From Candidatus Obscuribacterium magneticum (GTDB lineage Bacteria > Elusimicrobiota > Elusimicrobia > F11), in NCBI GenBank assembly GCA_020523905.1, contig JAJAPZ010000003.1:62001-126000 (forward strand): a DNA stretch of 64,000 bases, read 5' to 3'. Made by a program: the position numbers and the translations under genes. The notes below the pieces were generated by a model. That model did no database searches and was not told where the DNA came from. It saw nothing but the letters and a program-made list of their open reading frames with translations. This document shows positions 2 to 62,925 of this stretch, piece after piece. How positions within the stretch are numbered: the first letter of the stretch is position 1; every line of letters begins with the position of its first letter.

Positions 2-385
2 CTCCCGAAGCCGCCCATCCCCGTCCAAGCGGCCCCTCAACCCACTCCGATAAAGGAGAAACAGATTTATGTCTATTCGGGGGACCAATACAGGGACCCC
101 TTTGTTCCTACCGGCCAATCCAGCAATTACAAGGCCGACGCCGTTTTCGACCCCGTCCGCTCCGTTGTGAAAGGCATCATTTTTGGACGTGAGCTAAAAT
201 CGGCCGTCTTGACGGGGAATGCGGGCAGCTACTTCGTAAAGTCGGGCCGCATTTTTGACGTCATGGGAAAGATTATTGAGGGCTATACCGCAGACATTTT
301 TGTCGACAAAGTCGTCATTCAGAATGAAGCCGGAAATACCTACGAACTGAAGGTTAAAAATCCGGATGAGGAGGATAAGAAATGA
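2..385 (+). CDS. pilP: PilP-like type IV pilus lipoprotein, 3' part only
   Basis: This is the C-terminal part of a gene that begins before the window; the frame is open from base 2 to the stop at 385. In PilP-type proteins the C-terminal beta domain sits in the periplasm and links the inner-membrane PilNO complex to the PilQ secretin. The visible part has a proline-rich linker, then the PilP-like YRDPFVP motif, then a beta-rich stretch (LKSAVLTGNAGSYFVKSG, residues about 62-79). The stop overlaps the pilQ start by four bases (ATGA), so the two are translationally coupled. The family call rests on the RDPF motif and the pilQ neighbour. The amino-terminal signal peptide cannot be seen. Confidence 0.8.
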   Translation, partial: LPKPPIPVQAAPQPTPIKEKQIYVYSGDQYRDPFVPTGQSSNYKADAVFDPVRSVVKGIIFGRELKSAVLTGNAGSYFVKSGRIFDVMGKIIEGYTADIFVDKVVIQNEAGNTYELKVKNPDEEDKK

Positions 386-2145
386 AGAAATTTTCCATGA
401 AACTAATCTGGGCCTGTGTCTATTGCGTCCAATTGATCGGGGCCCCCTTGACGGGGTCAACCGCTCCCGCCGGTGAGAGTTCCGTTCCTGCGGTTCAGGA
501 TGTCCGCGTGGAAGGATCCGACGTCATCATTGAGCTTTCACAGCTGATGCCTTATAAAACATCCAGCATGACATCCCCCTGGAGACTCATCATTGAAATT
601 CCGGGGACCTTGTACAAAACCGGATTTAGTAAAAAGGATCTCAATACCCTGTTGGTACGCCGAGTGAGGGGGTATCAGTTCAAGGAAACCCCCCTGGTCT
701 CCCGGGTCGTTGTCGATTTAAACGCCCCAGTCGACTACAAATCCTCCAACGTAGATAATAGTATTGTTATTAACTTCAGAAAAAACGAAGCCCTGGAAAG
801 CCAACAGAAAAAGGAAGCGGCCGGGAAAGAAAAATCGATGCTGGGTCAGCGCCGAAGGGATCTGCTGAACTCCTTGCCGAAGGAAATCGTGACACTGGAT
901 TTTGAAGGGGCCGACATTCGTGATGTCGTCCGCCTCATGTCCGAGACGAGCAACATCAATATCATTTACGGACCCGAGGTGGCCGGCACCATCACCATCC
1001 ATCTTAAACAGGTCCCTTTTGATGAAGCCTTCAATACCATTCTGAATCTCAAGGGTTTCGTCGCCAGCCAATTGGGGTCGAACATCCTTCGGGTAACCAC
1101 GCCGGAAATCCTTCAAAAAGAACAATCCAAAGCGGTGGTCTTCACCAAAACAATCCCCGTCAACTACATCAAGGCCCAGGAAATGCAGAAGCACATCCAG
1201 TCGATCATGTCGTCCGCCGGCCGCCGGGGCAACATCACAATCGCGGAAGAAACCAACAGCCTCGTTGTCACCGATACCCAGGACGGCCTTGCCCAAGCGG
1301 AACGGCTGATTGCCCAAATCGACAAAAAGCCGGCCCAAGTCATGATCGAAGCCCGCATCGTCGAAATCAATCTCAACAACGGCCTCGATGTGGGCGTTCA
1401 GTGGGAATACGCCAAGCAGAATTTTAAAACGGACGCATCGGGAGCGACGGAAAAAGCGACGACGTTTGGGTTACTTGACCGATCAGGAGGTTCTCGCATT
1501 TCTCAAACTGGAACATTCTCAGGATCAGGTGAGGAATCCATTGGAGCTATAGGTCCCGGTCAGGCGGGGACAGGAGTCAATCTCCCCGGTCCCGCCTCGG
1601 CCGCCATCACCTTCGGTATCGTGAAAAATCTTTCCGCCTTCAGCGCAACACTCTCCGCCCTGGTCAACCAAAGCAGGGCCAAAATCCTAGCCGCTCCAAA
1701 GGTCGTCACCATTAATGGTAAAGAAGCCAGAATACAAGCCGTTCAAGACATTCCTTTCCGCACCGCTGCCGTCTCGGCTTCCGGAGCGGTGGCCGAATCC
1801 TTCACCACGGTGAGTGCTGGTATCATCTTGGCGGTCACCCCCACGATCAACGCAGAAGACAAAATTACCCTCAAAATTGCACCCGAATCGAGTTTTCCAA
1901 CCGCCGACAGCACGCCGGCAGGCCCCATCATCCGCACCCGGAAAGCGGAAACCACGGTTATCGTCAAAGACGGAGATACACTGGTCATTGGGGGGCTTAT
2001 TGACGATCAGGACTCCAAAGGGGTGTCGAAAGTGCCGTTATTGGGAGATATTCCCATCATTGGGATCTTCTTCCGCTCCAATACCAGTCGAAAGATCCGA
2101 AACGAACTCCTGATTTTTGTGACGCCGCGTATTATCCGCGAGTAA
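382..2145 (+). CDS. pilQ: Type IV pilus secretin PilQ
   Basis: Predicted to form the outer-membrane channel through which the type IV pilus emerges. The 587 residues start with a signal peptide, followed by an AMIN domain (about 35-130), a secretin/TonB N-terminal domain (about 165-225, with DFEGADIRDVVRLMSE), a NolW-type N domain (about 255-320), a Gly/Ser-rich insertion (about 350-405) and the C-terminal secretin domain. The secretin domain carries the VPLLGDIPIIGIFFR motif and ends in LLIFVTPRII. Length and order fit PilQ, and the overlap with the pilP stop supports the assignment. A GspD-type secretin is the alternative, but the AMIN domain and pilP favour PilQ. Confidence 0.95.
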   Translation: MKKFSMKLIWACVYCVQLIGAPLTGSTAPAGESSVPAVQDVRVEGSDVIIELSQLMPYKTSSMTSPWRLIIEIPGTLYKTGFSKKDLNTLLVRRVRGYQFKETPLVSRVVVDLNAPVDYKSSNVDNSIVINFRKNEALESQQKKEAAGKEKSMLGQRRRDLLNSLPKEIVTLDFEGADIRDVVRLMSETSNINIIYGPEVAGTITIHLKQVPFDEAFNTILNLKGFVASQLGSNILRVTTPEILQKEQSKAVVFTKTIPVNYIKAQEMQKHIQSIMSSAGRRGNITIAEETNSLVVTDTQDGLAQAERLIAQIDKKPAQVMIEARIVEINLNNGLDVGVQWEYAKQNFKTDASGATEKATTFGLLDRSGGSRISQTGTFSGSGEESIGAIGPGQAGTGVNLPGPASAAITFGIVKNLSAFSATLSALVNQSRAKILAAPKVVTINGKEARIQAVQDIPFRTAAVSASGAVAESFTTVSAGIILAVTPTINAEDKITLKIAPESSFPTADSTPAGPIIRTRKAETTVIVKDGDTLVIGGLIDDQDSKGVSKVPLLGDIPIIGIFFRSNTSRKIRNELLIFVTPRIIRE

Positions 2146-38902: not shown

Positions 38903-38920
38903 TTTCACTCGTGAGTGAAA
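38903..38920 (+). promoter_or_regulatory. Palindromic operator candidate over the abiEi start
   Basis: TTTCACTC-GT-GAGTGAAA is a perfect 8 bp inverted repeat with two bases between, overlapping the GTG start at 38911. A further AAGTGAAA half-site lies at 38931-38938. AbiEi antitoxins are known to repress their own promoter by binding inverted repeats, so this is a reasonable operator. Confidence 0.55.
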
Positions 38921-39984
38921 TTAGACAATTAAGTGAAACATCCCCTCGGGGTCTAGCAGCCCATCTGCTCAAAACCCTCCCCTCTTTATTGCCCTCCTTA
39001 CAAATTCTCAAAAGGAGCACTAAAAAAGGCCAGGAGAACACCCCCACCGATGCGACCGTTTGGGTTAAAACGCCAACAGGAAAAAAACAGAAGCTCATTG
39101 TCAAAATTAAAGCCGCCACCTATCCGAGCAATTTAATCCAGGCGGTTCGCAAACTCAAAGCATCGGCCCCCGCCCCCTCTTGCCCTGTGCTCGCCACCTC
39201 CTTTATTAGCCCCCAAGCACGGAAGATTTGTCGAGAGGAAGGCGTCGGATATATTGATCTGGCCGGCAACTGCTTTCTTCAGTTTCCCGATTACCTCGTT
39301 GAAAAAGTCGTTGAGAAAAACCCGTTCCCACGGAGGGGGCGCCCCCCCTCGCTTTTCAGCCCGGTTTCAACGCGTGTCATTCGAGCCTTTCTCGAAGAAC
39401 CCCAGCGGACATGGAAAGTCATCGAGTTGGCCGAAACCATGAAAGCGAGCCTGGGACAGGCTTCAAAAATCACGCAACAATTGATCGCTGATGGTTATAT
39501 CGCCAAGACGGGCCGAGAGCTCAAGCTGATTGCTCCGACAAAACTGCTCGACGATTGGCGCGACCAATACAAATCCGACACAAACGGCCGAACGACCACT
39601 TACAGTTTCGAACAGTATCCGGAACGATTGATGGCACACGTGGCCAAGAGCGCCGAAGAAAAAGAATTACGGTACGCGCTCACCTCCTTTGCCGCCTCGT
39701 CTCTCGTGGCTCCATTTGTTCGTGGCGCCGAAACCGTCGAATGGTACGTTGAAAATGAAAGCGCCGTTGATCAATGGGTCCAAGCGTTGGATTTACGTCC
39801 CGTCGAAGCGGGGGCCAATGCCGTTTTGATTATTCCTTATGACAAAGGCGTTTTTTACCGGACGCAAAACGTGAACGAGCTCATTTTGGTTAGTAACATT
39901 CAGCTCTATCTTGATCTCACATCCAATCCCGCCCGTGGGCGGGAACAAGCAGAATTTCTACGAAAGGAAAGGATTCCTTTTTAA
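38911..39984 (+). CDS. Type IV toxin-antitoxin AbiEi family antitoxin/regulator
   Basis: A 357-residue protein resembling AbiEi antitoxins. A winged-helix segment is seen at about 150-210 (STRVIRAFLEEPQRTWKVIELAETM ... ASKITQQLIADGYIAKTGR, in parts), with a preceding region PVLATSFISPQARKICRE and GVGYIDLAGNCFLQF typical of this subgroup. The C-terminal region would oppose the toxin. It starts at GTG inside a palindrome and ends three bases before a nucleotidyltransferase gene, the normal abiEi-abiEii order. The region upstream is strongly AT-rich. The family call is from pattern and gene order. Confidence 0.75.
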   Translation: MSEIRQLSETSPRGLAAHLLKTLPSLLPSLQILKRSTKKGQENTPTDATVWVKTPTGKKQKLIVKIKAATYPSNLIQAVRKLKASAPAPSCPVLATSFISPQARKICREEGVGYIDLAGNCFLQFPDYLVEKVVEKNPFPRRGRPPSLFSPVSTRVIRAFLEEPQRTWKVIELAETMKASLGQASKITQQLIADGYIAKTGRELKLIAPTKLLDDWRDQYKSDTNGRTTTYSFEQYPERLMAHVAKSAEEKELRYALTSFAASSLVAPFVRGAETVEWYVENESAVDQWVQALDLRPVEAGANAVLIIPYDKGVFYRTQNVNELILVSNIQLYLDLTSNPARGREQAEFLRKERIPF

Positions 39985-39987
39985 GCC

Positions 39988-40863
39988 ATGGCACCGGAAC
40001 AGACAGCACAAACATATAGCTCCGCCGTCACCGCCGCGTCCAAAAGCGCTCTCTTGGAACTCATGACCATGTTTCGTTCTTATCGGGAAGCGATTGTTTT
40101 GGTGGGGGGCTGGGTGCCGGCCTTCCTTCTGGAGCAGTGTCACAGAGTGGGGGACACGTTCACGCACATCGGTTCAATCGACATCGATCTGGCCATCAAT
40201 CCGGGAAAAATAAGCTCCGCCCAATACGCAACAATCGTTGAACTTCTGACGCAGGGGAGCTATCAACCCGCTTCGGATCGGGAGGGTAAGCCGATCCCTT
40301 TTTCTTTCGAAAAAATGATCTCCTCACCGATCGATGCGAAGCTTTACAAGATCCGGGTCGACTTCCTGACTCATGAACGGGACTTGAGGCCCGGGAAACA
40401 TCGCCATTCCCCGGTGCAAGAGGATCTTCTGGCAAGGAAAGCCAGGGGTTGTGAAGCCGCGTTCCAACACAAAACCGAATTTGAACTGAGGGGTGTGTTA
40501 CACGGGGGCGGGCAGATTTCTATGCCGATCCGAATGGCGGATGTCGTTGGTTGCATCACAATGAAGGGGATCGTGCTGGGAGAACGTTTTAAGGAGAAAG
40601 ATGCGTATGATACCTATGCATTGGCCGCTCATTATGGGGATGGGCCGAAAAGTGTCGCGGATCGGCTAAAGCCTTACACAAACGAACCTCTGCTGAAAGA
40701 AGCTCTTAACAATATCCAACAGGCGTTTTCGAGCCGGGACGCACACGGCCCCATTTGGGTCGCCGACTTTTTAGGACCGGCGTCCGCCGCCGAACGCGAT
40801 CGCATGGTCACTCATGCCTTTATGGTGGTTAATGAGATGATTCGCTTATTGTTCCCTCAATGA
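39988..40863 (+). CDS. AbiEii-like nucleotidyltransferase toxin
   Basis: A 291-residue protein with the nucleotidyltransferase signature: LVGGWVPAFLLEQ (about 32-44) followed by THIGSIDIDLAINPGKI (about 56-72), that is GG and the DxD metal-binding pair. AbiEii-type enzymes act as toxins by modifying tRNA acceptor ends or similar targets. Immediately follows the AbiEi-like gene and overlaps the methyltransferase start by ATGA. The toxin assignment is inferred from family and context. Confidence 0.75.
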   Translation: MAPEQTAQTYSSAVTAASKSALLELMTMFRSYREAIVLVGGWVPAFLLEQCHRVGDTFTHIGSIDIDLAINPGKISSAQYATIVELLTQGSYQPASDREGKPIPFSFEKMISSPIDAKLYKIRVDFLTHERDLRPGKHRHSPVQEDLLARKARGCEAAFQHKTEFELRGVLHGGGQISMPIRMADVVGCITMKGIVLGERFKEKDAYDTYALAAHYGDGPKSVADRLKPYTNEPLLKEALNNIQQAFSSRDAHGPIWVADFLGPASAAERDRMVTHAFMVVNEMIRLLFPQ

Positions 40864-41720
40864 ATCAATTTGATCGGGACATAAAAAAGGGCCGACGCTT
40901 CCCGTTCGGGAAAAACTGGGCGAGCTTCCTGGCCACCCTAAACGAGGACCGTATCAAAACCGCGGAGAGGTCCCTTCAGAAGATGCTGGAAGGTCCCGAT
41001 TTGAAGGGGAAAACTTTCCTGGATGTAGGCTCGGGGAGCGGCCTCTTTTCGCTGGCCGCCCGGCGCCTGGGCGCCCGGGTCCATTCCTTTGATTACGATC
41101 CCCAATCCGTGGAATGCACGAAAACCCTCAGAGCCCAGTATTACCCCGCCGATGAAGCCTGGACTATTGGGCAAGCCTCCGTCCTCGATCTCGATTACTT
41201 AAAGGAGCTGGGAACGTTCGACATCGTCTATTCCTGGGGAGTCCTCCATCACACGGGACAGATGTGGCAAGCCTTAGGAAATGTGTCTCACCTGGTTAAA
41301 CCAGGGGGGAAACTCTACATCGCGATCTATAACGACCAAGGCTGGATCTCGAAATTTTGGCGGGGGGTCAAAAAAGCCTATTGTTCGGGCCCTGTCGGCA
41401 AAACTCTTATGAATATTGTATTCGTCCCCTATTTCTTCCTGCGCGCCACCGCCAAAAGCATCCTCACCCGCCAAAACGCCTTCGCCACTTACCGCAAAGA
41501 ACGGGGCATGTCCATCTGGCACGACTGGCAGGACTGGCTGGGGGGACTTCCCTATGAGGTGGCCAAACCGGAGGAAATCAATTCATTTTTTCAAAAGGCG
41601 GGCTTGACCTTCACCAAACTTAAAACCACCAAATCCCTCGGCAACAACGAATTCGTCTTGATCAAAAAGTTTTTGCCCCTGCCCCGTTCAACGCACGGCA
41701 TGTCAAGGATGGGATATTAA
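40860..41720 (+). CDS. Class I SAM-dependent methyltransferase
   Basis: A 286-residue Rossmann methyltransferase: motif I FLDVGSGSGLFSLAARRLGA (about 54-73), acidic SFDYDPQSVEC (motif II), and YSWGVLHHTGQMWQAL (about 123-138). The C-terminal part has basic and aromatic residues (WRGVKKAYC, WHDWQDWLGGLPYEV) as in methyltransferases of surface glycan clusters. It is coupled to the AbiEii-like gene by a four-base overlap. Its 3' end overlaps the convergent Ig-like gene by 18 bases. Substrate unknown; it may be part of the AbiE module or a glycan/pilus enzyme that happens to be adjacent. Confidence 0.85.
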   Translation: MNQFDRDIKKGRRFPFGKNWASFLATLNEDRIKTAERSLQKMLEGPDLKGKTFLDVGSGSGLFSLAARRLGARVHSFDYDPQSVECTKTLRAQYYPADEAWTIGQASVLDLDYLKELGTFDIVYSWGVLHHTGQMWQALGNVSHLVKPGGKLYIAIYNDQGWISKFWRGVKKAYCSGPVGKTLMNIVFVPYFFLRATAKSILTRQNAFATYRKERGMSIWHDWQDWLGGLPYEVAKPEEINSFFQKAGLTFTKLKTTKSLGNNEFVLIKKFLPLPRSTHGMSRMGY

Positions 41721-43157
41721 ATTTATGGTTCCCACAGCGCTGTCGGGGGAGCCGCCAAGGCCACCCCGATAAGTCATGGTGTCAGTTCCAAACCAGCCTG
41801 GATTCGGCGTATAATGCAGACTTGGCGGTGTCCCACCAAGAGTCCCATGGGACGGGCCTTGGTATGAAAATGATTGGACCTGTGAAGTGACATCTTGACC
41901 ATTCAAAGTAAAATAAAAGTAAAACCAGAACCCCGCACCCGCATACGTGTCAAACTGAAGGTTCGATGCCACCAGCGTCCCACCCATTGATACGGTAATC
42001 GATACCGTCGCATTGTTGCTGTCCACTGTTCCGTCGTTCGCCTTGTATGTAAAACTGTCATTCCCCGACCAACCCGAAGTGGGCGTATAGGGTATATTCG
42101 GCCCTGCAATCGAACCTAATGAACCATTGCTCGGACCCGTCACTACACTGTAAGTTAGCGGATCTCCATCCGGATCCGTTGCAGATAACGTGATGTTATT
42201 GTTAGTGGAGTCTTGATATGCAGTCACATTCATATTATTCGCCACGGGTGGGCGATTGACCGCAGTCACTGTGATCGAGACGGTCGCTTCATTACTGTCC
42301 ACTGTTCCGTCGTTCGCCTTGTACGTAAAACTGTCATCTCCAGAATAGCCCCCCTCCGGCGAGTAGAGCACATCCGGACCCGGCGGTGCCCCGCTGACAC
42401 TCCCATGACTCGGGGAGGTCACAAAGTAGTAATTTAACGGATCTCCATCCGGATCCGACGCATCCAATATGATGCTATTGTTAGAGGAGTCTTTATCGAC
42501 CGTCGCACTCACATTATTCGCCACCGGGGGTTGATTGCTCTCCCTCACCAGGATCGACACCGTTGCAACATTACTGTCCGAACTTCCGTCGTTCGCTTTG
42601 AACGTAAAAGAATCACTCCCCGTCCAACCCGAATTGGGCGTATAGGACACATTCGGTGGGACCCCACTTAAGAATCCTTGGGCCGGGGAAGCCACAATAG
42701 AATAACTTAACGTATCTCCATCCGGATCCATCGCATGCAAAGTGATATTCACCGCGGTGTCTTGATCGGTCGAGATACCATCGTTGTAGGCAACCGGCGG
42801 ACGATTGGACGAAGATGATTCGCCGGATGTATCAATAGACTCGTCCGGAGAAGAGAAGACCTCTCGTGGTTCAGGGCCTTCAGCGCCGGTTCCCCCACCA
42901 CCTCCTCCCTGCTCTGAATCAAATCCATCCTCTGAGTCAGATGTAAATTCACCGGGACTAAGTTCAATCCATTGAACGACACCTGAAGTTGAAGAATCAT
43001 CCGGTTCAACACGTCCATAAGATCGAAGTCCACCCCCCAATAAAGGACTGCCCCCGGATGTCCGGTAAACATAAGCGTATAGAACAACGATTACTGAAAA
43101 ACAGGCAATCAACAACGCACTCCACACCATGTACTTATATCGTCGATAGATCTTCAT
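41703..43157 (-). CDS. Membrane-anchored protein with tandem cadherin/Ig-like (Big_9-type) repeats
   Basis: A 484-residue surface protein. A short basic N-terminus is followed by one hydrophobic helix (about 10-31), an acidic Ser/Gly linker (about 50-117), three tandem repeats of about 93 residues (118-391) and a diverged fourth (about 400-480). Each repeat has NRPPVANN, DPDGDPL, YTPTSGWSGNDSFTYKANDG and ATVSITV, the tandem-95/Big_9 pattern that binds calcium in related folds. The start at 43157 has AGGTG six bases upstream; two earlier codons are possible. It is last in the minus-strand pilin-like operon, 32 bases after the PilX-like gene. Probably an adhesin or pilus-tip component. Confidence 0.8.
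   Translation of the reverse strand: MKIYRRYKYMVWSALLIACFSVIVVLYAYVYRTSGGSPLLGGGLRSYGRVEPDDSSTSGVVQWIELSPGEFTSDSEDGFDSEQGGGGGGTGAEGPEPREVFSSPDESIDTSGESSSSNRPPVAYNDGISTDQDTAVNITLHAMDPDGDTLSYSIVASPAQGFLSGVPPNVSYTPNSGWTGSDSFTFKANDGSSDSNVATVSILVRESNQPPVANNVSATVDKDSSNNSIILDASDPDGDPLNYYFVTSPSHGSVSGAPPGPDVLYSPEGGYSGDDSFTYKANDGTVDSNEATVSITVTAVNRPPVANNMNVTAYQDSTNNNITLSATDPDGDPLTYSVVTGPSNGSLGSIAGPNIPYTPTSGWSGNDSFTYKANDGTVDSNNATVSITVSMGGTLVASNLQFDTYAGAGFWFYFYFTLNGQDVTSQVQSFSYQGPSHGTLGGTPPSLHYTPNPGWFGTDTMTYRGGLGGSPDSAVGTINLISHP
41985..42806 (-). repeat. Three tandem ~275 bp coding repeats (Ig-like domains)
   Basis: Protein repeats of about 90-93 residues. Units two and three are also close in DNA, sharing CTGTCCACTGTTCCGTCGTT and GCCTTGTA(C/T)GTAAAACTGTCA, which indicates recent duplication. 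Confidence 0.85.
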
Positions 43158-43189
43158 AGTCATCACCTAATGTGCAGCATTCACCTCTC

Positions 43190-44560
43190 TCAATCACCGC
43201 CGACCGCACTGCTGTGCTGGAACTGATTATAAATAATCAGAAGTGGTGGCAAATAGGGCGGAGGGTTGTCTTTAAGCGTCGGATCATATTGATAAGACCG
43301 CCCCTTTATAAAAACTTCCCCGAAGTTAACACCACTCCCCAAAATTGTCGCTCCCTTGAAAGAAAGCACCAAATACTGATGATCCGAAGTAGGTTCATGA
43401 GCAATGGCCCGAAATGTTCCATTGGGAGCCAACACCAAGGCCTCGATTTTCTGTTCCGTTTCGGGAGGACTCACGGGTATGTCATTTTGAATGAACACCG
43501 TTCCCCTGGTTCCGGGTATTAACACCAATTGATTCGCGGTGGACTCGAATTGTTGGCCTCTTCCGGGGTATGTTGTATCAATTGATACCGTGACATTCCC
43601 GTGGAGGTAAATATTCCCATTGGCCACCATGAGAACCTGGCCATGCACCACGGTGTCCATGGCGGGATCCCCGATATCAATATCCCCATTAAAATAATAC
43701 ACATGTTCCCTGTTGTCCCGTGTGTGAAGAGAGTGTCCGCCGGCATCCACATAAAAATCGTTCGCGGGAGGATTATTGAGATCAAAATTCCAAAATCCTG
43801 GAGGATAAATATCCCCTTTAAAATTGTGAACGGTTGTATGATCACCCGTCAATTTGGCCAGAACCTTGTACCGCTTTTCCAAGTCATTCTCCGTCACTTG
43901 GGGAAAAACCATGGGGAATATCAATTTAAAGGGCTCCCCAGGCACGGCGGGGTCATCGATAATGATCTTGCCCTTCGTAAAAGGATCCCAAGGAGTAGCC
44001 GGTACGACACTTTCAAAATATTCCGCTCGAAAGAGGCGCATTGTATCCGGGTTACTAAATCCATCAAACGTCAACTCCCGCGCGTACACTTTCCCGCCGG
44101 TCAAATTGGCGGGGATGGAAAAGGTGGCCGGACCATTGACGGCTGAAAAGTACGAGGAAATGTTGGCAATGTCCAAAATGGTGTGGAAAACAATTTCGAA
44201 AACTTTCCCTGAGACTGTCAACGTCGCGCTGGTAACAATATAATAAACATTATCTTTGGGTTGGTTTCGCCGATAGCAAAAACTTTGGTATCTTTTTGAG
44301 GCGCCGACCTGCACCACTGTACAAAATGGATCGTCCGGATCGGAAGAACACAACGTCGGTTCCAACGAAAGCCTCCCAATCGCCTCGCTGGTTCCCGTTT
44401 GTGCGAGAGCCGCCACTTCTTCCATGGTTCTTAAAAAGGTGGATTGCTTTGACTTGGTCATGAAAACCTGCGTCAACGAGTAAAGGATGACGGTGGCCGC
44501 CAACAACACGACCGCCACAAAAGCGACGGAAACCCCCTTATCCCTCCGTTTTAAATTCAT
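43190..44560 (-). CDS. PilX-like pilus assembly protein
   Basis: A 456-residue protein with a basic N-terminus (MNLKRRDKG), then a hydrophobic helix VSVAFVAVVLLAATVILYSL typical of PilX/minor pseudopilins but without a Glu at +5, and a large extracellular domain with a beta-helix-like stretch (TVVHGQVLMVANGNIYLHGN, about 300-320). PilX_N-type proteins join the pilus tip complex. The ATG at 44560 overlaps the upstream stop (ATGA) and has GGAG nine bases upstream. Its C-terminus is unlike any family I recognise, so only the N-terminal part supports the call. Confidence 0.7.
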   Translation of the reverse strand: MNLKRRDKGVSVAFVAVVLLAATVILYSLTQVFMTKSKQSTFLRTMEEVAALAQTGTSEAIGRLSLEPTLCSSDPDDPFCTVVQVGASKRYQSFCYRRNQPKDNVYYIVTSATLTVSGKVFEIVFHTILDIANISSYFSAVNGPATFSIPANLTGGKVYARELTFDGFSNPDTMRLFRAEYFESVVPATPWDPFTKGKIIIDDPAVPGEPFKLIFPMVFPQVTENDLEKRYKVLAKLTGDHTTVHNFKGDIYPPGFWNFDLNNPPANDFYVDAGGHSLHTRDNREHVYYFNGDIDIGDPAMDTVVHGQVLMVANGNIYLHGNVTVSIDTTYPGRGQQFESTANQLVLIPGTRGTVFIQNDIPVSPPETEQKIEALVLAPNGTFRAIAHEPTSDHQYLVLSFKGATILGSGVNFGEVFIKGRSYQYDPTLKDNPPPYLPPLLIIYNQFQHSSAVGGD

Positions 44561-45147
44561 GGGTGGAAACTCCATACCGTGGCATCTGTTTTAAGCATCA
44601 CGGGGGCTTTTGCAAAGATTCCCTTGTTAAAGCGAAGGACGATGCGAACCGAGGAAACCGGGTCGTTCAACGGTTCAAATATGGGGTTGTGTTCATCCGG
44701 TTGTTGAAGGAGATTTTTAAAATATTTTTTCACATTCCACACTGTATGTGGTTCATCCGCTGTGAAGTCGACCGTCTTCATTAGGCAGGCTTCTGCGGGC
44801 GAATATATATACGTGATAAATCCATCCTTCCCTTCAACGAACAAATCAGGATTCTTAGCAGGATCAAAGCCCTTGGCGGTGTTGTACACACGAATGGTAC
44901 AGGAGGAAGGCCCTACACTCCAAATGGATTTGGCGTTGTTAATTTCCTTGGCCATATTAAAAAGGACCGGGTCCGACACCATTTCAACCTGGAACTTCGC
45001 GTTTTGTTCGTTCAGGGCTCCCAAGAAACGGACGGCTGTACCGGTCATTAAGACCACACTGCCGAGAATCGCCATGCTGATCACGGCTTCCGTCAGGGTG
45101 ATACCGGGGTCATATCGTCTCATTAATGCCCAAGCTCTCATTTTCAT
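44557..45147 (-). CDS. Type IV prepilin-like minor pilin (PilV/PilW type)
   Basis: A 196-residue protein with a prepilin leader: basic start, then cleavage site G-ITLTEAVISMAILGSVVLM (Gly15/Ile16) and the conserved Glu at mature position 5. The mature domain is small and beta-rich. The leader would also fit an internal start at 45123 (MRRYDPG), giving a normal seven-residue leader. The start is two bases after the giant pilin gene and its stop overlaps the PilX-like gene. Role: minor pilin in an initiation or tip complex. Confidence 0.82.
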   Translation of the reverse strand: MKMRAWALMRRYDPGITLTEAVISMAILGSVVLMTGTAVRFLGALNEQNAKFQVEMVSDPVLFNMAKEINNAKSIWSVGPSSCTIRVYNTAKGFDPAKNPDLFVEGKDGFITYIYSPAEACLMKTVDFTADEPHTVWNVKKYFKNLLQQPDEHNPIFEPLNDPVSSVRIVLRFNKGIFAKAPVMLKTDATVWSFHP

Positions 45148-45149
45148 CT

Positions 45150-48017
45150 TCAGTATCCCGTCCCTGGTTTAAGCTCCATCACGCAATCGAAAGATTGTTC
45201 TGGATTCGATTGCTCATACACTGGATAATAGGAAGATGTGGTATCCTGATACGCTGGATGAGTACAAACGATATACCATTGCCACGTGTTTTTCGTCTGT
45301 GGAACGTAGACATTGGGAATATTATACTGAAGCTTGTTAGGACACGGGGTCCTCACACAGGCATGAGTCGCATTGCCCGCATCATCAACCGAGGATCTGG
45401 CAATATTTCCTTCCGTATCTCGATACAAGGTCACCGTGGCGTTCCGAATGGGACGGCCATAATAATCCTGTACCCGTCCATAAAAATGCATCTTTTTCAT
45501 GAGGCGTAAATCAATCCGCCCCCTATAAACAGGCGGGGCCGATGTCGTTGGATCCCAAGTCAGATAGTAGGCACCGCTAAATGACGTATCCCTCAACCCG
45601 TCCTCATGCATTAAAATACATTTATAACCCACCGCATCGTTGGACGTGGGAATGACCATGGAAACAGGGTTATTGCTGGAGTCAACAACGATCACCTTCG
45701 CATTCCTAAATTTCGTTTTCTTATCGCTCTCCAAATCCAACACTTCGACATTGACCGTCGGAGCCGGGGATTCGCCCGGTGAAGGCGGTTGTCCGAACTG
45801 GTCTTTGACACGGGAATCAGCATCCGAATAGCCGAGACTCTCATACGTTTCCGTTTTAAGGGTCGGAACAGGAGGGGAAAGGGTGGGGATATTCCCATTG
45901 ACGTTTGGATCGCGGCGAGCCTTCTCAACCCAATTACCCGACTCATTCTGAATTTCGACCCTTAAACGAAGGGGATCAATGACATCGGACGCATTGTTTA
46001 TTCGATTTTCAGGCACAATCCCATCGGGGCCGCCGGTATCTCTGTTGAAGCTGACCCTCAAATCAAGCTTAATATCCGCGTCGAGATCCGATGTTTTGAA
46101 GGCGCTATAACTGACATACATTGTATTGAAAAGCGGAGGAACGAAGTTGGTAAAGGCAGTGGTGTTGAGACACAAGGTGGGATAGGTAACGATAATCCGC
46201 GGGTCCTTGAATATCGTGGTTTTGGACCCATCATTGTCGACACGAAGGGCGGCAAAATCCTTGAAACGGACACCTGATTCCACTCTTATGTAAGGGGTAA
46301 TGCTACACGAAAAACCTTCGTTTCCGTTCGGATTCGGATTGAACGGCTGACTGGGAGCCGAGTTTTTCTTGATGTTCACATTAACGGTTAAAAGATTGCC
46401 CGCGTTGTACCCCAACATATAATAATCATTCCTTTCGGTCGCGGCGGCATGAACGGGAAAGAGAAAATTCGTGTCATCACTAATACTGCTAAAAATACGG
46501 GGATAAACTTCCGTGCCCCACGATTCTGTGGTAATTATAAATTGCACGTTTTCTTTTGTTTTTTGATCAGGTGTGGTTTTGCCCGTCCCCAAAACAAAAA
46601 TAGGAATGAGGGTGGGAGGGACCTGTTTGTAGGGCCAACTAAGGACTAGGCTGCTTGCATCATCGGGCGAGTAATTGTTGAAATCTGGATGAATGACTAA
46701 AGGCACCAATTGATTGACCCTATAGGACCCATCGCCATTTTTCGTGGCCACCTGAACCGGATTGGCCTGGCCATAGGTATTGCGCAACAGCGGGCCGCTA
46801 ACGGTGTTATTGTAATTAAAGTCATGCGGTAAGGGGCCCGTTGTATAGTTGTAAATGCTCCATTTCTCTTGGAAAGTAAGTTTCACATCGTTGGGAACGG
46901 GGACCCCCGAATTCACGAACTTGCCACCGGCGAAATTGACCACCGAAACCGTGCCATAGACATCCCCCCGTTTAGGAAGAAAATAGGTTTTCTGTATAGC
47001 CGGGGAATTGTCACCCACATTGAAAATCTCTGTTCCCTGCCAATCGGGCCGGTCCAATGCCACACGAATGTCCGTCACGGTTTGATCCGGCCGCCTTGGA
47101 AAAAGACCCAGCACGGTAACGCGGCATGTCCCTGGGATGAAGGAATATTCGGCGGTTCTCCCGTAGGTGGAATCGGTTGTTAATATGGTACTGGTTAAAT
47201 GACCCGGGTAATCATTCAAATCCCAGCGTTCGAATTTTACCTTGGCGCTTCCAATGGGAACATCCGGATTCGACCGAGGCCATCGGAAAACATTGATGGT
47301 AACTCCCTTTAATTTCTTCAGATCCAGATTCAGAACCGGATTCACCCCAACGACCATGACCATCGGGAATTCACGTTTCGTTCCCGCTGGCAAGTCAGGA
47401 GACGTGGAGGCGGGAAAATAAGAGGCGGGCCGGGCCTGATGCTCTGTATCGCAGGTGACGGTAATGCTGCCGTAAGCGACCCCCCGTAAATTGCCTTCGC
47501 CATCGGAATCCGTCTGGCGGTACACATTCGACGATCCCTCATAGGGAGGGGCTTCGCAGTAAACATCACGAACAGGATCTCCGTCGGCCCGAGCCACCAG
47601 ATGAATAACCCCGCCGAGCGAGCGGCCGGGCCTTTGATTAAAAGAAAACGTTCGCGTCAATTCCACCTTCCGTCCATGTTCATCAAATCGATAAACAGTA
47701 ATGCTGGCCAAGCGCGAATTGACTCTAATGTCATCGACCACCAAATGATAATACAATCCCGGGTATTTTTTATCATTGGCGGGAAGAGTCACGTCTTGCG
47801 TCATCTCATACCAAGCGGATCCCGCCGAATCCTTGGTCAGACTGTTTCGCAAATCGGATATCAGCGCTCTCATCCGGCGATTTTCCCCTCCTAAAAATCC
47901 AGCTCGATAAAAACTGACAATGGCAACGGTAATAGCGGCCCCTAAAATGGTCAGAACGGCCATGGAGATGACCAATTCAACCAGTGAAAACCCGCGCTTC
48001 GTTGTGCTCTTCACCAT
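45150..48017 (-). CDS. Giant prepilin-like protein with carboxypeptidase-regulatory-like domains
   Basis: A 955-residue protein, several times the size of ordinary pilins. The prepilin peptidase site is clear: MVKSTTKRG-FSLVELVISMAVLTILG, with Phe at +1 and Glu at +5 (Gly9/Phe10), then a PilW-like FYRAGFLGGENRRMRAL helix. The rest is extracellular, with at least two carboxypeptidase-regulatory-like beta sandwiches: GVTINVFRWP...GSAKVKFERW (about 232-260) and HFYGRVQDYYGRPIRNATVTLYRDT (about 855-880). The middle shows long beta-rich segments. Two helices at most are hydrophobic. It heads the operon and is preceded by a promoter-like AT-rich gap. A pilus-tip adhesin or surface sensor is the best guess. 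Confidence 0.75.
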   Translation of the reverse strand: MVKSTTKRGFSLVELVISMAVLTILGAAITVAIVSFYRAGFLGGENRRMRALISDLRNSLTKDSAGSAWYEMTQDVTLPANDKKYPGLYYHLVVDDIRVNSRLASITVYRFDEHGRKVELTRTFSFNQRPGRSLGGVIHLVARADGDPVRDVYCEAPPYEGSSNVYRQTDSDGEGNLRGVAYGSITVTCDTEHQARPASYFPASTSPDLPAGTKREFPMVMVVGVNPVLNLDLKKLKGVTINVFRWPRSNPDVPIGSAKVKFERWDLNDYPGHLTSTILTTDSTYGRTAEYSFIPGTCRVTVLGLFPRRPDQTVTDIRVALDRPDWQGTEIFNVGDNSPAIQKTYFLPKRGDVYGTVSVVNFAGGKFVNSGVPVPNDVKLTFQEKWSIYNYTTGPLPHDFNYNNTVSGPLLRNTYGQANPVQVATKNGDGSYRVNQLVPLVIHPDFNNYSPDDASSLVLSWPYKQVPPTLIPIFVLGTGKTTPDQKTKENVQFIITTESWGTEVYPRIFSSISDDTNFLFPVHAAATERNDYYMLGYNAGNLLTVNVNIKKNSAPSQPFNPNPNGNEGFSCSITPYIRVESGVRFKDFAALRVDNDGSKTTIFKDPRIIVTYPTLCLNTTAFTNFVPPLFNTMYVSYSAFKTSDLDADIKLDLRVSFNRDTGGPDGIVPENRINNASDVIDPLRLRVEIQNESGNWVEKARRDPNVNGNIPTLSPPVPTLKTETYESLGYSDADSRVKDQFGQPPSPGESPAPTVNVEVLDLESDKKTKFRNAKVIVVDSSNNPVSMVIPTSNDAVGYKCILMHEDGLRDTSFSGAYYLTWDPTTSAPPVYRGRIDLRLMKKMHFYGRVQDYYGRPIRNATVTLYRDTEGNIARSSVDDAGNATHACVRTPCPNKLQYNIPNVYVPQTKNTWQWYIVCTHPAYQDTTSSYYPVYEQSNPEQSFDCVMELKPGTGY

Positions 48018-48394
48018 ATTTTTCCCTCTCGCTCTTCGATTTGCAACATTCAGACCACGGTGATTATAAAATTAGCCCCCTTATAATCCTAGTGATTATG
48101 TAAAAATTTCCCGATGTATGAATCCATTTACCGACGATCTCCGGACAAGTTCAAAACCCATTTTACCGACCGCAAAGGCCGCCACTAGGCTTAATAAGTT
48201 TAGCCCCATTTCCGCCGGAAAACAACTTGCCAAAAACACCCCGTTTTTTCAACGCGATTATATCGCAAAACGTCTATAGCAAAGGCAAAAAGTTTCTGAA
48301 CAGCGTCATTCCGGCGAAAGCCGGAATCCAGGACAGAGTGATAAAGGCCTGGAACCGCCGCGGCGGATGACGACATACAATGTGGCCTGTGCCT
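48018..48394. other. 377 bp intergenic region upstream of the giant pilin operon
   Basis: The first 100 bases are AT-rich and lie upstream of the pilin operon on the minus strand; TATAAT (minus, complement of 48063-48068) could be a -10 box, without a good -35. The middle (48120-48290) has no gene-like frame that I would support. The end holds a REP-like pair (48304-48374) that also lies downstream of the next minus-strand gene. Confidence 0.5.
48304..48374. repeat. REP-like pair in the pilin/membrane-protein gap
   Basis: CGTCATTCCGGCGAAAGCCG at 48304 and a mirrored variant GAACCGCCGCGGCGGATGACGAC ending 48374 in part; the second unit has the CCGCCGCGGCGG arm variant seen at 32663. Confidence 0.75.
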
Positions 48395-50248
48395 CTACAA
48401 CCCGGCGTTATAGATAAGAATGTCCTTAACCCCCGATGAATTGTCAACCTCAATAAAGGGGACAGGGTCGTCTTTCAAGTACACCGGCTTAAGGAGCAAG
48501 GCGGGACTCGATCGGAAGGTTTTTATCCAATGGAATTTCAAGACAACCCGCCCTTTCGACAATTTCTTTATGTCGATCCGATCGTAGTCGAAGGAGAGGT
48601 CCCCGGATCCTTCAACAAACCAGGAGGGAGGCTGCTTTATCCGGTATAAAAAAGTCCCGTCCAGAACTTCCAGGGGCTCCAAAACGGTCGAAAACTTGGC
48701 GAGCACCTTCCGGATTTCCTCCGAGCGAAAGGCAACGACCTGGACATTGTAGAGAGTCAGATAAGACGCGAACACCTCTTCCGTCATGGTTTTCAATTTT
48801 TTAGCGAACGCCTTCGGTTCGTCAGTAACCATCTTAACACCATCAAAATAATGACCGCTAAATACCAGGAATTGTGTGACCATGTGGTTGCCCGGATGGG
48901 GCCCTCCTATGACGGATTGCCCCGTCCAGATTGGGACCAGATCCGAAAAATGCGGCTCCCCTAAACCCCTCGTTTCCATAAGCAACCGCCCAGACGGGGG
49001 ATAATACTCCTTTAAATGCGTCATTAAATTCATTTGATATTCAGGCATCCGGGTCGTCAAGGGGCCCGTCCCTTTTTCCGCCGAATAAGCAAAAGGGGAA
49101 AAAAGGTAAAAGGGAATGAGTGTCGCTAACACACCGGCAAACTTCACTGGCTGTTTTCCTTCAATGAGGGACGACAATGAGAATCCAGCCAGAACACAGA
49201 GAAAGAGCCACAGGAAAAATAGGTTTCGTCCAGGCTGTAACGTATGTATCCAAGGCAGGTGGCTTCCCCAAAAAGAAATAACAGTTAGCCAAATTATCCA
49301 TATCACCATAACGCCGATGCAAGGACGCGGAAAAAATCGCTGTCTCAACGATTGAACAGAGAAAATCAACGTTGCCGCTTGAAACAGAAAATGGGCTGAT
49401 TCGAAAAACGTTGACCCCATGGGAAATATTAGACTCATCAATCCAATGGTACCGGATGACGGAAAATAAGGGGCCTCAGCCCGCCAATTTGAAAAAGCGA
49501 TAAAAGGATGGATCCAATACCAATTGGCCAAAAGGACCACGGCGACGGCACCCGTCAATTTAACCTGATCACGCCAACGGAAAGACCGAAAATAAAAGAA
49601 ATAAAGAAGAAGGTTCGGCACTCCGATCTGGAGCAAGGAAATCGGATGAAGTTGAAAAACCAAGGAACTTGCAAGAGTGAGGAATATCCACGTCTTCCAA
49701 TCCCGTGTTTGGATCCATTTCCATAGGAGACTCACCTGCCACAACGAAAAAAAAGAAGCCACATAAAATCCGAATAGGCCTGCCTGTATGAAGGTTGACA
49801 TGGGCAGCAGAACACCAAGGCCGATCACCAAAAGTCCAAATGTAACCCACGACATCTTTGTGCTTCCGCCAAAATTGCGGACAGTATGAATCATTAAAAA
49901 AGGGGCCAATGCGATACCGAGTAATTCAATAAATAAGAGGGACCTACTAACCGGGATGAAACCTGAAAAGCAGTGACAGACCAGGCCTATAAGATAATTT
50001 CCAACTTCAAAAAGGCCGTCAATCATCCCTGCCGATTGGAAGGGATCATACCCCCAAAAGTGATGAGACCGGGTGAAAAATTCATGCGCCCGTAGAGCCC
50101 GCGCGTAATACTGGATGTAATCGAAATTAACGAGGGGCAGGTTTGACGTAAAGTCAATCTTTCTAAACCAGAAGGCTATCTTCAGGAAGTGCAGGGCGAT
50201 GAGGTACAAATACCAGTGATTCCGAAAAAATCTCCGCAGCCAATGCAT
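48395..50248 (-). CDS. Large multi-spanning membrane protein, GT-C/PTPS-related-like (paralog 1)
   Basis: A 617-residue protein with about a dozen hydrophobic segments and a soluble C-terminal domain. It shares with the genes at 52196 and 54176 the N-terminal signature YYARALRAHEFFTRS and FWGYDPFQSAG, and the C-terminal LKDDPVPFIEVDNSSG and IYNAGL end. The YYxRA/GYDPF loop after the first membrane helix recalls the acidic first loop of GT-C glycosyltransferases, but the catalytic Asp/Glu pair is not certain. Function unknown; transfer of sugar to a surface structure is an inference. Start overlaps the upstream stop as TGATG. Confidence 0.75.
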   Translation of the reverse strand: MHWLRRFFRNHWYLYLIALHFLKIAFWFRKIDFTSNLPLVNFDYIQYYARALRAHEFFTRSHHFWGYDPFQSAGMIDGLFEVGNYLIGLVCHCFSGFIPVSRSLLFIELLGIALAPFLMIHTVRNFGGSTKMSWVTFGLLVIGLGVLLPMSTFIQAGLFGFYVASFFSLWQVSLLWKWIQTRDWKTWIFLTLASSLVFQLHPISLLQIGVPNLLLYFFYFRSFRWRDQVKLTGAVAVVLLANWYWIHPFIAFSNWRAEAPYFPSSGTIGLMSLIFPMGSTFFESAHFLFQAATLIFSVQSLRQRFFPRPCIGVMVIWIIWLTVISFWGSHLPWIHTLQPGRNLFFLWLFLCVLAGFSLSSLIEGKQPVKFAGVLATLIPFYLFSPFAYSAEKGTGPLTTRMPEYQMNLMTHLKEYYPPSGRLLMETRGLGEPHFSDLVPIWTGQSVIGGPHPGNHMVTQFLVFSGHYFDGVKMVTDEPKAFAKKLKTMTEEVFASYLTLYNVQVVAFRSEEIRKVLAKFSTVLEPLEVLDGTFLYRIKQPPSWFVEGSGDLSFDYDRIDIKKLSKGRVVLKFHWIKTFRSSPALLLKPVYLKDDPVPFIEVDNSSGVKDILIYNAGL

Positions 50249-52164
50249 CAGGTTTTATTCGTTATGATGATGCGTTTGAGGTGAGTGACGTTGATCAACG
50301 AGATGAAGGGAGTCGGATCATTCCCCACTTTCTTCGGCCGTATCTGAACGCCGAAAGGGGCTTGAAGCACATCGTTCCAATGGTATTTAAGAAGGATTTT
50401 CCCTCGGTTGGGGTTTTGAATTTCAATCCGATTGTAGCCCGCTTTCACGTGTCCTGAGCCCTCCAAAATATAATCCGGTGAATAACTAATGACCCTGTAG
50501 ATGCGATAGGGATCGGCTTGGGGCGGATAAAAAGGTTTGCCTTCCTTTTTTATGGGTGGTTTATATCTCTTTTGAAACAAAGGACGGAAATCGTTGGGAT
50601 ACCGGTCAAATTGGGACCGTGCCTGGAGTGAGAAAGCCACCACATAAACCACGTTATACTGATACAAGACCTTCACAAGATTGTCCTGATTGTAAGCTGA
50701 CAGGGGCGCCCCAAAAAGCATGGGCGGATGGCCGTTTATCTTGGCGGTGAAGCTCACCGATTTCTCTACGGATGTATACGGATCGTAGGTTGGAATACCG
50801 ATGAACTCAAGGCCCGTCCACAAAGGTAAAACATCATACTTATCATAATCCTGGCTTGTCACTTCATACAGGACTCGCCCATCGCGCGGTAAATGCTTCA
50901 ACATGCTAACGAGAGAGTTCGGTCTCCCAGGGAGGCTTTCCCTATAATCATTGAAGCCAGAGAGATTTCCCGGCAGCTGCCAGGTCATCTGGAACCAGAC
51001 AAACCAGAGTAGATATATCATCCAAACGCTTTTCGTTTCAATGACTTTCTTCGACAAGTAAATGCTCGCCGGGATAATGAGAACCAAAATGAGGGGGAAA
51101 ACGTATCGAAAGGGATCCCAATTGAATGTATATGAAATTTTCCCGACAATCCATGCAAAGGGGATCAGAAACAATACCCAAAGAAAAAATAGCCACGCCT
51201 GATTCTTCTTTTCCTTCCAAAATGTCCAGATCCCTCCGCAAAAAGACACCAAAATGAAAAACCGAATCAGAATCCCGGTCCACTCGTCCCGCCCCATATG
51301 AAAGGGACGGAAGCTCAGAAAAGCCGCCAACAATGGCCAGTTCACCAAATAAGGGATCAACAAGCTTGCCGAGACGGCCACCCGCCCCTTCGACCTTAGT
51401 GCGGTCCAATGGCTCATAAAAATCGCTCCGAGCGGCACAAGGAGAATGACAAGAAGGATCGGATATAAATACCCCACAAAAGTGAAAGTCATCGAAAATA
51501 GAATGAGATGGAATATTAAACGATCCAGTGGATTATTATCATCGCGGACTTGATCTGACAGCACTTTAAAAAATTGGCTGATGCAGAAGACGGAGAGGAA
51601 GCTGGCAAAGACAAATGGCACCAACTTCCACGGGACAAACCACGAGAAGAAATCGGAATTCGCCAATGCGGCCACCCCCAACGCCATCGCCAAAAGGGAA
51701 GCCGGTTGGTTTCCGCCGAAATTCCGACAGGTCCTATACAAGAGAAGAGGGGAAACCAAAAAACATAAAAAGAAAGTGAGAAATAGTAAGCGGGCCACCG
51801 ACATCCACCGGCCCACCAGTCGATCCACAAACATCGTAAACCTCGCCCTGTCATCCAAAGAAACATTGAACGATGCGCCAGCCCGATGATAGGGATCGTA
51901 GCCCGTACCTTTCCCACTGGCTTTTCTCATCAATCGATTCCTCAATACACTGGCATATTCAAAACTATAATTGGTTGAAATAAAATTACTTGGTTTGAAA
52001 AAATATTCCACCGGAAGAAGCCGTGACACTTTGACTAAATGAAGGCAATAAATCAGGACAAAAACCAATGCCACCCGAAAAGGGACCGAAATCTGTTTCT
52101 TCAGAAACTCAAAAAATGTTTCACTTCGTTCCTTCAAACCAATCTCGGGCGTTGGGCTATCCAC
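50248..52164 (-). CDS. Large multi-spanning membrane protein, divergent relative (paralog 2)
   Basis: A 638-residue protein with the same plan (about a dozen hydrophobic segments, beta-rich C-terminal domain), the loop GTGYDPYHRAGASFNVS (about 86-102) where the others have GYDPF, RTCRNFGGNQPASLLAMALG and the C-terminal LEGSGHVKAGYNRIEIQNPNRG, GKILLKYHWNDVLQAPFGV. It lacks the RAHEFF and IYNAGL motifs. The stop overlaps the start of the next gene by one base. Function unknown. Confidence 0.7.
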   Translation of the reverse strand: MDSPTPEIGLKERSETFFEFLKKQISVPFRVALVFVLIYCLHLVKVSRLLPVEYFFKPSNFISTNYSFEYASVLRNRLMRKASGKGTGYDPYHRAGASFNVSLDDRARFTMFVDRLVGRWMSVARLLFLTFFLCFLVSPLLLYRTCRNFGGNQPASLLAMALGVAALANSDFFSWFVPWKLVPFVFASFLSVFCISQFFKVLSDQVRDDNNPLDRLIFHLILFSMTFTFVGYLYPILLVILLVPLGAIFMSHWTALRSKGRVAVSASLLIPYLVNWPLLAAFLSFRPFHMGRDEWTGILIRFFILVSFCGGIWTFWKEKKNQAWLFFLWVLFLIPFAWIVGKISYTFNWDPFRYVFPLILVLIIPASIYLSKKVIETKSVWMIYLLWFVWFQMTWQLPGNLSGFNDYRESLPGRPNSLVSMLKHLPRDGRVLYEVTSQDYDKYDVLPLWTGLEFIGIPTYDPYTSVEKSVSFTAKINGHPPMLFGAPLSAYNQDNLVKVLYQYNVVYVVAFSLQARSQFDRYPNDFRPLFQKRYKPPIKKEGKPFYPPQADPYRIYRVISYSPDYILEGSGHVKAGYNRIEIQNPNRGKILLKYHWNDVLQAPFGVQIRPKKVGNDPTPFISLINVTHLKRIIITNKT

Positions 52165-52195
52165 TCTGCTACCTCCTATCAGTCAATCGGTGATT

Positions 52196-54052
52196 TCACA
52201 ATCCCGCATTATAGATGACAATATCTTTTGCGCCAACAGAGTTATCAACCTCAATAAAGGGAACGGGATCATCCATCAGCCATCGCGGTCGGATGGGGAC
52301 AGAAGGACGGGTTTTAAACGTTTTTATCCAATGGGATTTTATAACGAGAATACCCTTCGAAGCACCGCGAATCGTAAGTTTGTCGTAATCCATCGCTAAA
52401 TTACCATTCCCCTGAATAAACCAATTGAAATTGCCTTTAACTTGATAAAAGTTATGATCTCCAATTTTAACTGGAGAAAATAGAATTCCAGAGTGTCTGT
52501 TGAGAATCCGGATGGATTGCTTTGACCATGCCGCGATATTAGAAACGTTGTAAAGGCGGAGATAGGCGGCAAATTTTTTTTCGTCAATGTCTGACAAGTG
52601 CTTGCCAAACGCAACGGGTTTGTCCGTAAAGGAACCATTGTCTTCAATACAATTATTCATGAATTTGGTAAATCGCGTAATCAAATAGTTTGAGGGAAGG
52701 TCGCCGCCAAGTAGAGGTTGCCCAGTAAGTATAGGTATAATTTCAGAAAAATGAGGGTAGCAGTTCGGCCGATCCCCACATTCGAGGAGTAATCGTCCCG
52801 GCAATGGTTTCTCAACTTTAATGTAATTGATAACTGTTTGGAGGTCCTTAGGAAATTCGGAGAAATAACATACGGGATTAAACCATAGCAGACATACTGG
52901 AAGAGCGAGTGGGATTAAAAAAACTAACGATTTTCTAATAGTGGAAGTATCTAGGGACAAGGAAACAACACCTGCACCAAGTAGCCAAAACGGCAATAAA
53001 TACCGGAGTGGTTGAAGACCAGCAATCTTCGGAATATGACTTCCCAAAAATGGGAAAACAGCCAATCCCATTAACCAAATAGCCAATAGGACGGATTTGG
53101 AGGCAGAATGTTTGGATAACTTTACCAGGAAAAAGCACGGCATAACCACCGTTATAATATTTGCAACAGATCGAAGAGAGTCTTCCCATCGAGTTTGAAT
53201 CGGAGAATAATGGGTGATCAAGTCACGCAAATTAAAAGAAGGCAAATAAGGACTTGGCAATATCCAATCGTAAAAGGCGATTAGGGGTTTTATCCAATAC
53301 CAGTTACTGATGAAAAATATTAATACTGAGATGGAAAGAAATATGTGATGTTTAAATTTAAGAGTACGTGCAAAATAAAGATAGATTGACAAAAATGGAA
53401 TAATGACAATGAAAAGAGACGAGGGATGAAGCTGAAAAATAACGGAGATGCCCGCTGTCAATAATAGCCATGAAATAAATCCCTTTTTAACCATCCATTT
53501 CCAGAAAACACTTACAATCCATAAACCAAGAAAACTACTAATGAAAAAAGTGAAGAGGCATCCCGGAATCCACCATGCTGTAGAAAAATCCAACCCCCCG
53601 AACATAAGGATGCAAATGGCGAACGCGAGGCGCCCTTGGTCACGGGTTCCACCAAAATTACGAACAAATGAAATCATCAAAAAGGGACAAAGAAAGAAAC
53701 CGATAAACACAGCCATAAGAAGCGTTTTGTCGATGGTAAGAATACTGGACAAAAGATGAGCCAAGAGACTCGTAAAAATATTTCCAACTTCATGGATGGG
53801 GCCGGAGATATATCCGGCCATCTCAAAAGGATCGTACCCCCAAAAACGCCCTGATCGGATAAAGAATTCGTGTGTACGAATGGCGCGGGTGTAGTATAAA
53901 ACGAAGTCGGTATTTAGTATGGGATAACCAGAAGAGAAATTTATCTTATGGAATCGCCATATCCAGTGCACGCTATGCAGAAACACAAAAAAATAAAACC
54001 AATGATTTTCCGCCAGTTTTTTAAGCCGCTCGATACGATTGGGGTTAATCAT
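52196..54052 (-). CDS. Large multi-spanning membrane protein (paralog 3)
   Basis: 618 residues with start at 54052, chosen because MINPNRIERLKKLAENHWFY aligns with the N-termini of the other paralogs; an earlier ATG at 54097 adds 15 unlike residues. It has YYTRAIRTHEFFIRS, GRFWGYDPFEMAGYI and the C-terminal DDPVPFIEVDNSVG and IYNAGL. Very close to the gene at 54176 in the first 110 residues. More AT-rich than the housekeeping genes. Function unknown. Confidence 0.72.
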   Translation of the reverse strand: MINPNRIERLKKLAENHWFYFFVFLHSVHWIWRFHKINFSSGYPILNTDFVLYYTRAIRTHEFFIRSGRFWGYDPFEMAGYISGPIHEVGNIFTSLLAHLLSSILTIDKTLLMAVFIGFFLCPFLMISFVRNFGGTRDQGRLAFAICILMFGGLDFSTAWWIPGCLFTFFISSFLGLWIVSVFWKWMVKKGFISWLLLTAGISVIFQLHPSSLFIVIIPFLSIYLYFARTLKFKHHIFLSISVLIFFISNWYWIKPLIAFYDWILPSPYLPSFNLRDLITHYSPIQTRWEDSLRSVANIITVVMPCFFLVKLSKHSASKSVLLAIWLMGLAVFPFLGSHIPKIAGLQPLRYLLPFWLLGAGVVSLSLDTSTIRKSLVFLIPLALPVCLLWFNPVCYFSEFPKDLQTVINYIKVEKPLPGRLLLECGDRPNCYPHFSEIIPILTGQPLLGGDLPSNYLITRFTKFMNNCIEDNGSFTDKPVAFGKHLSDIDEKKFAAYLRLYNVSNIAAWSKQSIRILNRHSGILFSPVKIGDHNFYQVKGNFNWFIQGNGNLAMDYDKLTIRGASKGILVIKSHWIKTFKTRPSVPIRPRWLMDDPVPFIEVDNSVGAKDIVIYNAGL

Positions 54053-54175
54053 ATTAGACCATCTCATCTGACACACGTGACCGAAGTACACTTTCATGCT
54101 ATCATCAAATTTCGACCTGGAACACTTATAATATAATCTCTTCGCTTGACAAGATTACACCGTTAGCGGACATTC
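54053..54175. promoter_or_regulatory. Divergent promoter region between paralogs 3 and 4
   Basis: A short AT-rich gap separates two divergent membrane protein genes. Two overlapping TATAAT boxes on the + strand (54127-54132 and 54132-54137) lie 40-50 bases before the ATG at 54176. No matching -35 is visible. Confidence 0.35.
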
Positions 54176-62919: not shown

Positions 62920-62925
62920 TTGATT

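Follow-up and report, generated by a model that had tools for sequence, protein, structure and literature searches.

The window analysed here, a stretch of 64,000 nucleotides, carries at 41703-48017 four genes on one strand, the first of which encodes a prepilin of 955 residues. The questions raised by this locus are what such a large pilin might do and which of the genes behind it belong with it. An earlier note, made from the sequence alone, had proposed a dedicated tip-adhesin operon serving the pilus whose secretin gene, pilQ, lies at the other end of the window. The window is part of a 168-kb contig from a fragmentary Elusimicrobiota MAG with 71% completeness and 13% contamination.

Layout of the operon

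The features concerned are listed below, with the evidence for each in brackets.

45150..48017, minus strand: giant prepilin, 955 aa, with a mature form of about 946 aa and about 105 kDa; assigned as an I-class modular minor pilin (ORF; N_methyl above the Pfam cutoff)
47991..48017, minus strand: class III leader peptide, residues 1-9 of the 955-aa protein (sequence)
47442..47612, minus strand: CarboxypepD_reg-like region after the pilin head, about residues 136-192 of the giant (weak Pfam match)
45363..45479, minus strand: CarboxypepD_reg-like region, residues 847-885 of the giant (Pfam E 9e-7, below the gathering cutoff)
44557..45147, minus strand: J-class minor pilin, 196 aa, DPG^ITLTEA, Glu5 present (ORF and profile match)
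43190..44575, minus strand: K/PilX-like subunit, 461 aa, KG^VSVAF, without Glu5 (ORF and profile match)
41703..43166, minus strand: N-terminally anchored protein, 487 aa, with four tandem Big_9/cadherin-like repeats (ORF and Pfam)
382..2145, plus strand: PilQ secretin, last gene of the T4aP core cluster (Secretin, Secretin_N and AMIN)

All four operon ORFs are present where the earlier note had placed them, and the close spacing that it described is borne out by measurement. The 955-aa and 196-aa genes are 2 bp apart. The 196-aa and 461-aa genes overlap by 19 bp if the latter is read from its first ATG and by 4 bp (ATGA) if it begins at its alternative start, Met6 at 44560. The gap from the 461-aa gene to the Ig-repeat gene is 23-32 bp, depending on the choice of start codon. 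A single strongly hydrophobic segment, located at the N-terminus, is present in each of the four products. The 955-codon ORF is not a chance one, since homologues exist in other genera; these, together with the gene order kept across genera, also rule out a frameshift artefact. Contamination of the MAG was considered as a source of the contig and is countered by its relatives: other members of the same GTDB family have the same triplet of giant, minor pilin and K genes, so a foreign origin of the contig is rejected.

Several other features were observed around the operon. A palindromic GGATTCCGGCTTTCGCCGGAATGAC repeat (48300-48360) separates it from the upstream genes, which begin with three consecutive large hydrophobic ORFs on the same strand (617, 638 and 633 aa; 48395-54097) without a Pfam match. 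On the other side, an AbiEi-like antitoxin gene (AbiEi_2, E 2.9e-10) is followed by a 291-aa gene (38911-40863), a possible type IV toxin-antitoxin pair. The window also includes a HEPN-domain gene (60065-60628) and an AAA (kinase-like) domain fused to a cytidine/dCMP deaminase (62920-63939).

The perfect class III site claimed for the 955-aa protein is confirmed: RG^FSLVE is exact, with predicted cleavage before F10 and Glu5 present, and N_methyl is found at residues 7-29 with 25.7 bits against a cutoff of 21.2. The carboxypeptidase-regulatory-like domains attributed to the same protein are weakly detectable. In the window giant, PF13620 at residues 847-885 remains below the cutoff (29.6 bits against 32.3) and a second CarboxypepD_reg match, at about residues 141-191, has an E of 0.07, but the domain is above the cutoff in four paralogues of the giant. 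In addition, region 136-192 aligns with a homologue from genome G002 in which the domain (residues 156-210) is again above the cutoff. Structure prediction with few alignment rows gave pLDDT values of 28 (955-aa protein) and 40 (461-aa protein), too poor to use, and PDB sequence searches returned nothing except weak pilin N-termini.

Modules in the family and across the phylum

Relatives were sought with a K-protein profile against 235 genomes of the class. Full-length matches are confined to the window's own family (G000, the genome of the window, G001, and G002 twice), with a fragment in G003. These type I modules are about 25% identical among themselves. The triplet order of the window is kept in the relatives in G001 and G002: giant prepilin (868 to 1137 aa), minor pilin (205-249 aa) and K (498-546 aa). 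For one G002 copy, giant and minor pilin lie on two contig ends and we infer their adjacency. The window giant is homologous to the 1137-aa prepilin of G002 (BLAST E 1e-9 over 299 residues). Directly upstream of this 1137-aa giant lies a gene (L005 3533-10504) for a product of at least 2323 aa, which contains fn3 repeats and has a C-terminus of the CHU_C/FlgD type.

A prepilin-motif scan of four genomes of the family identified further giants. In type II modules the order is giant-J-K (about 830-960 / 160-240 / 420-500 aa). The window's own genome carries a divergent type II pair (G000:C51; 868/168/427 aa and 821/194/426 aa), and elsewhere in the family there is one module in G001 and pieces in G003. 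Type III modules, present in G001, G002 and G003, have the order K-giant-J (432-453 / 1033-1076 / 332-341 aa).

The type II giant is widespread, and most of its matches fall in open reading frames 830-960 residues long. It occurs in 130 of the 235 class genomes (54 of 64 genera) and, in the phylum-wide set, in 123 of 295 genomes (62 of 90 genera; 97 of 190 high-quality genomes). In nine of the 235 class genomes there is a type III giant. The giant-J-K order on one strand is found in all 24 type II modules inspected (20 regions in 20 genomes of 12 families), and several genomes have two such modules per locus, either divergent or convergent. Oppositely oriented pairs were often observed (L034, L069, L070, L071, L072 and L063); at L063 a type II giant adjoins a type III giant. 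Nearly all members of family f10, whose genomes are small, gave no match to the type II giant. These genomes (1.4-1.7 Mb; for example, G041, G030, G053 and G051), nearly without giant modules, carry from 18 to at least 150 prepilin motifs each (at least 150 in G041); the other families searched have 4-17 per genome.

Mean pairwise identity among type II giants is 0.29-0.47 in every 50-residue block, so the graft of about 800 residues is a conserved part of the protein rather than a hypervariable tail, and more than 120 genomes are available as a deep alignment for learning what such a pilin graft looks like. At the profile sensitivity used for K and J, the window giant shares with the type II giants the pilin start alone. 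Its two partners match the class-wide type II profiles (196-aa protein against J, E 4.5e-6; 461-aa protein against K, E 5e-6). The window giant is one of a family of pilins of 820-1140 residues found in most of the Elusimicrobiota genera sampled. The size that the earlier note called unusual is so for bacteria in general, but within Elusimicrobiota such pilins are common. A search of the literature on Elusimicrobiota pilins, with subscription journals outside its scope, returned no description of these modules.

Subunit classes and a probable pilus tip

The earlier note had staked its reading on orthologues with both the processing site and an intact operon, and the triplet of the first three genes withstands this test. 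The site is kept in homologues, and Glu5 is present in 27/27 type II giants, absent from all 28 K proteins and present in 24/24 J proteins as well as in every J of the window's own family (for giants and K, the counts are from aligned N-termini, the automatic pattern count being noisy). The window follows this pattern, with E5 in the giant and in J and F5 in K. The N-termini of sibling giants have PilV, GspI and ComGE models as best matches in most cases, and J proteins match PpdB, GspJ and ComGF. All these matches, including those to the NCBIfam T2SS GspI/J/K models, are well below the cutoff of any subunit-class equivalog and mostly cover the pilin helix common to all classes; the class labels therefore owe as much to gene order and to the distribution of Glu5 as to the model matches. 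For the 461-aa protein, the earlier label 'PilX-like' agrees with its position, with a hydrophobic helix carrying Phe in place of Glu5 and with a weak C-terminal DUF7305 match. It does not extend to the PilX_N family (PF14341), which at E 0.1 matches neither the window K nor six sibling K proteins scanned; the K proteins scanned have no T2SSK match either.

Directly upstream of the window pilQ, on the same contig, lie pilB, pilT, pilC, a PMT-type glycosyltransferase gene (L030 13866-15914), pilA (a 162-aa pilin), pilD, pilM, pilN and pilO. This is a T4aP core cluster ending in pilQ, and the proposed tie between operon and pilus is upheld to the extent that both are on one contig. In G001, the gene behind K (L016 8411-9925) encodes a multi-TM protein of 504 aa that resembles glycosyltransferases; the two glycosyltransferase genes might point to pilin glycosylation.

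We consider it likely that the first three genes encode the minor-pilin tip complex (I-J-K), with a giant I subunit, of a retractable type IVa pilus. The observed basis consists of the coordinates, the prepilin sites, the gene order, the Glu5 pattern, the relatives at family level and the T4aP core on the contig. The 955-aa protein would be an I-class modular pilin bearing a graft of about 800 residues, probably rich in beta structure, the 196-aa protein a J-class minor pilin and the 461-aa protein a K-class capping subunit without Glu5. By analogy with type IV filaments studied elsewhere, the triplet is expected to prime pilus assembly, with the giant module placed at the tip. The leaders of the three prepilins would be cut by PilD; the I, J and K subunits would assemble first at the inner-membrane platform, prime pilus extension and leave through PilQ at the pilus tip, where the giant module, exposed outside, could bind a surface or a glycan. 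A tip-adhesin role of the giant is a plausible hypothesis. As there are several paralogous modules per genome, these are probably alternative tips on one machine. Against the tip complex stand the sub-cutoff class models with matches mostly in the shared helix, the missing PilX_N and T2SSK matches, the unusable structure models, the 43 kb and opposite strands that separate the operon from pilQ, several other PilB-like ATPases in the genomes, and the lack of an adjoining gene of the H/FimU type: no FimU- or GspH-like gene adjoins the module, whose upstream neighbour is the 617-aa ORF at 48395-50248.

The fourth gene could be given a larger part. PilY1 follows PilX in known operons, and the Ig-repeat gene, on the same strand and close behind K, could by this count take the place of PilY1 in a four-gene adhesin operon and encode a partner dedicated to its function. 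We think this improbable. No Ig-repeat gene lies downstream of K in the other type I loci, where the downstream gene differs each time, and neighbours at this position vary among type II modules too. The repeats themselves (four Big_9 repeats according to Pfam and not three Ig-like domains as first described) are common parts of surface proteins and are not PilY1. The first three genes of the earlier four-gene unit recur elsewhere, but the complete set was not found in the other type I loci. The Ig-repeat gene is probably co-transcribed with the triplet, and its product is probably a lineage-specific surface protein outside the conserved module.

The triplet could also belong to another machine, forming the tip of a T2SS pseudopilus or of a different type IV filament, with the giant acting in the periplasm on secreted substrates. 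GspI and GspJ are indeed among the matching models, and the genomes have several additional PilB-like ATPases, but the cluster on the contig is a T4aP with PilT, PilM, PilN, PilO and PilQ, modular grafts are documented for T4P (PMC8179133) and a short pseudopilus would hardly have room for a 105-kDa subunit; we give this little credence. Slightly less probable still is a stand-alone surface or envelope structure that would use the prepilin peptidase and not the T4aP, like the multi-copy Verru_Chthon cassettes. The modules are likewise multi-copy cassettes of prepilin-like genes, they are located away from the pil cluster, and type II J weakly matches protein C of the Verru_Chthon cassette (E 2.9e-6), far short of the model cutoff. 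This match is limited to the first 63 residues, a stretch that is similar in all pilins, and the I-J-K order with a cap lacking Glu5 fits the tip logic of T4P and T2SS.

The T4aP tip complex may be extended, more tentatively, to the phylum. It is conceivable, though we would not count on it, that giant I-class pilins occur phylum-wide in several exchangeable I-J-K modules per genome and replace PilY1 at the T4aP tip, type I of the window being a fast-changing, family-specific branch. A search for PilY1 (PF05567) gave 0/117 class genomes, but all its controls were silent too. If right, a phylum known almost only from sequence would rely on a giant pilin subunit as its principal surface for adhesion or sensing. 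Since the I-J-K layout is strict and Glu5 is kept in I and J but missing from K, this can be tested in any cultured relative that bears a module.

Comparison with known systems

Verru_Chthon prepilin cassettes are multi-copy sets of prepilin-like genes, a trait they have in common with the Elusimicrobiota modules; against the corresponding NCBIfam models (TIGR02596, TIGR02599) there is a weak N-terminal match to protein C only. The GspI-GspJ-GspK pseudopilus tip of T2SS has the same I, J, K logic, with a larger K that lacks Glu5, but the I subunit here is a giant and the NCBIfam equivalog cutoffs are not reached. The order has an exception in Elusimicrobiota itself, where type III modules run K-I-J.

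In known type IV filaments, assembly starts from a complex of minor pilins at the tip whose capping subunit lacks Glu5 (PMC10191384). In Myxococcus xanthus a single machine with a single major pilin is served by three minor-pilin clusters, and either cluster 1 or cluster 3 by itself suffices for pili (PMC7541494). The FimU-PilV-PilW-PilX-PilY1 clusters of this species resemble the present modules in being several paralogous sets for one T4aP, in the order V-W-X and in a PilX without Glu5; they differ in that no FimU adjoins the modules here and that the bulky part is on the PilV-like subunit.

In architecture, the giants resemble modular type IV pilins such as Streptococcus sanguinis PilB and PilC, in which a bulky graft comes after the class III signal and pilin helix. 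An InterPro survey of such proteins lists PF13620 as one of the 15 commonest grafts, and the vWA graft of S. sanguinis PilB is a demonstrated adhesin (PMC8179133). The largest case quoted there has 860 residues, compared with 820-1140 aa here, and unlike other modular pilins the Elusimicrobiota graft is on the I-class subunit of an I-J-K triplet and is conserved over the phylum. The triplet is a variant of the known modular minor pilins and not a new system.
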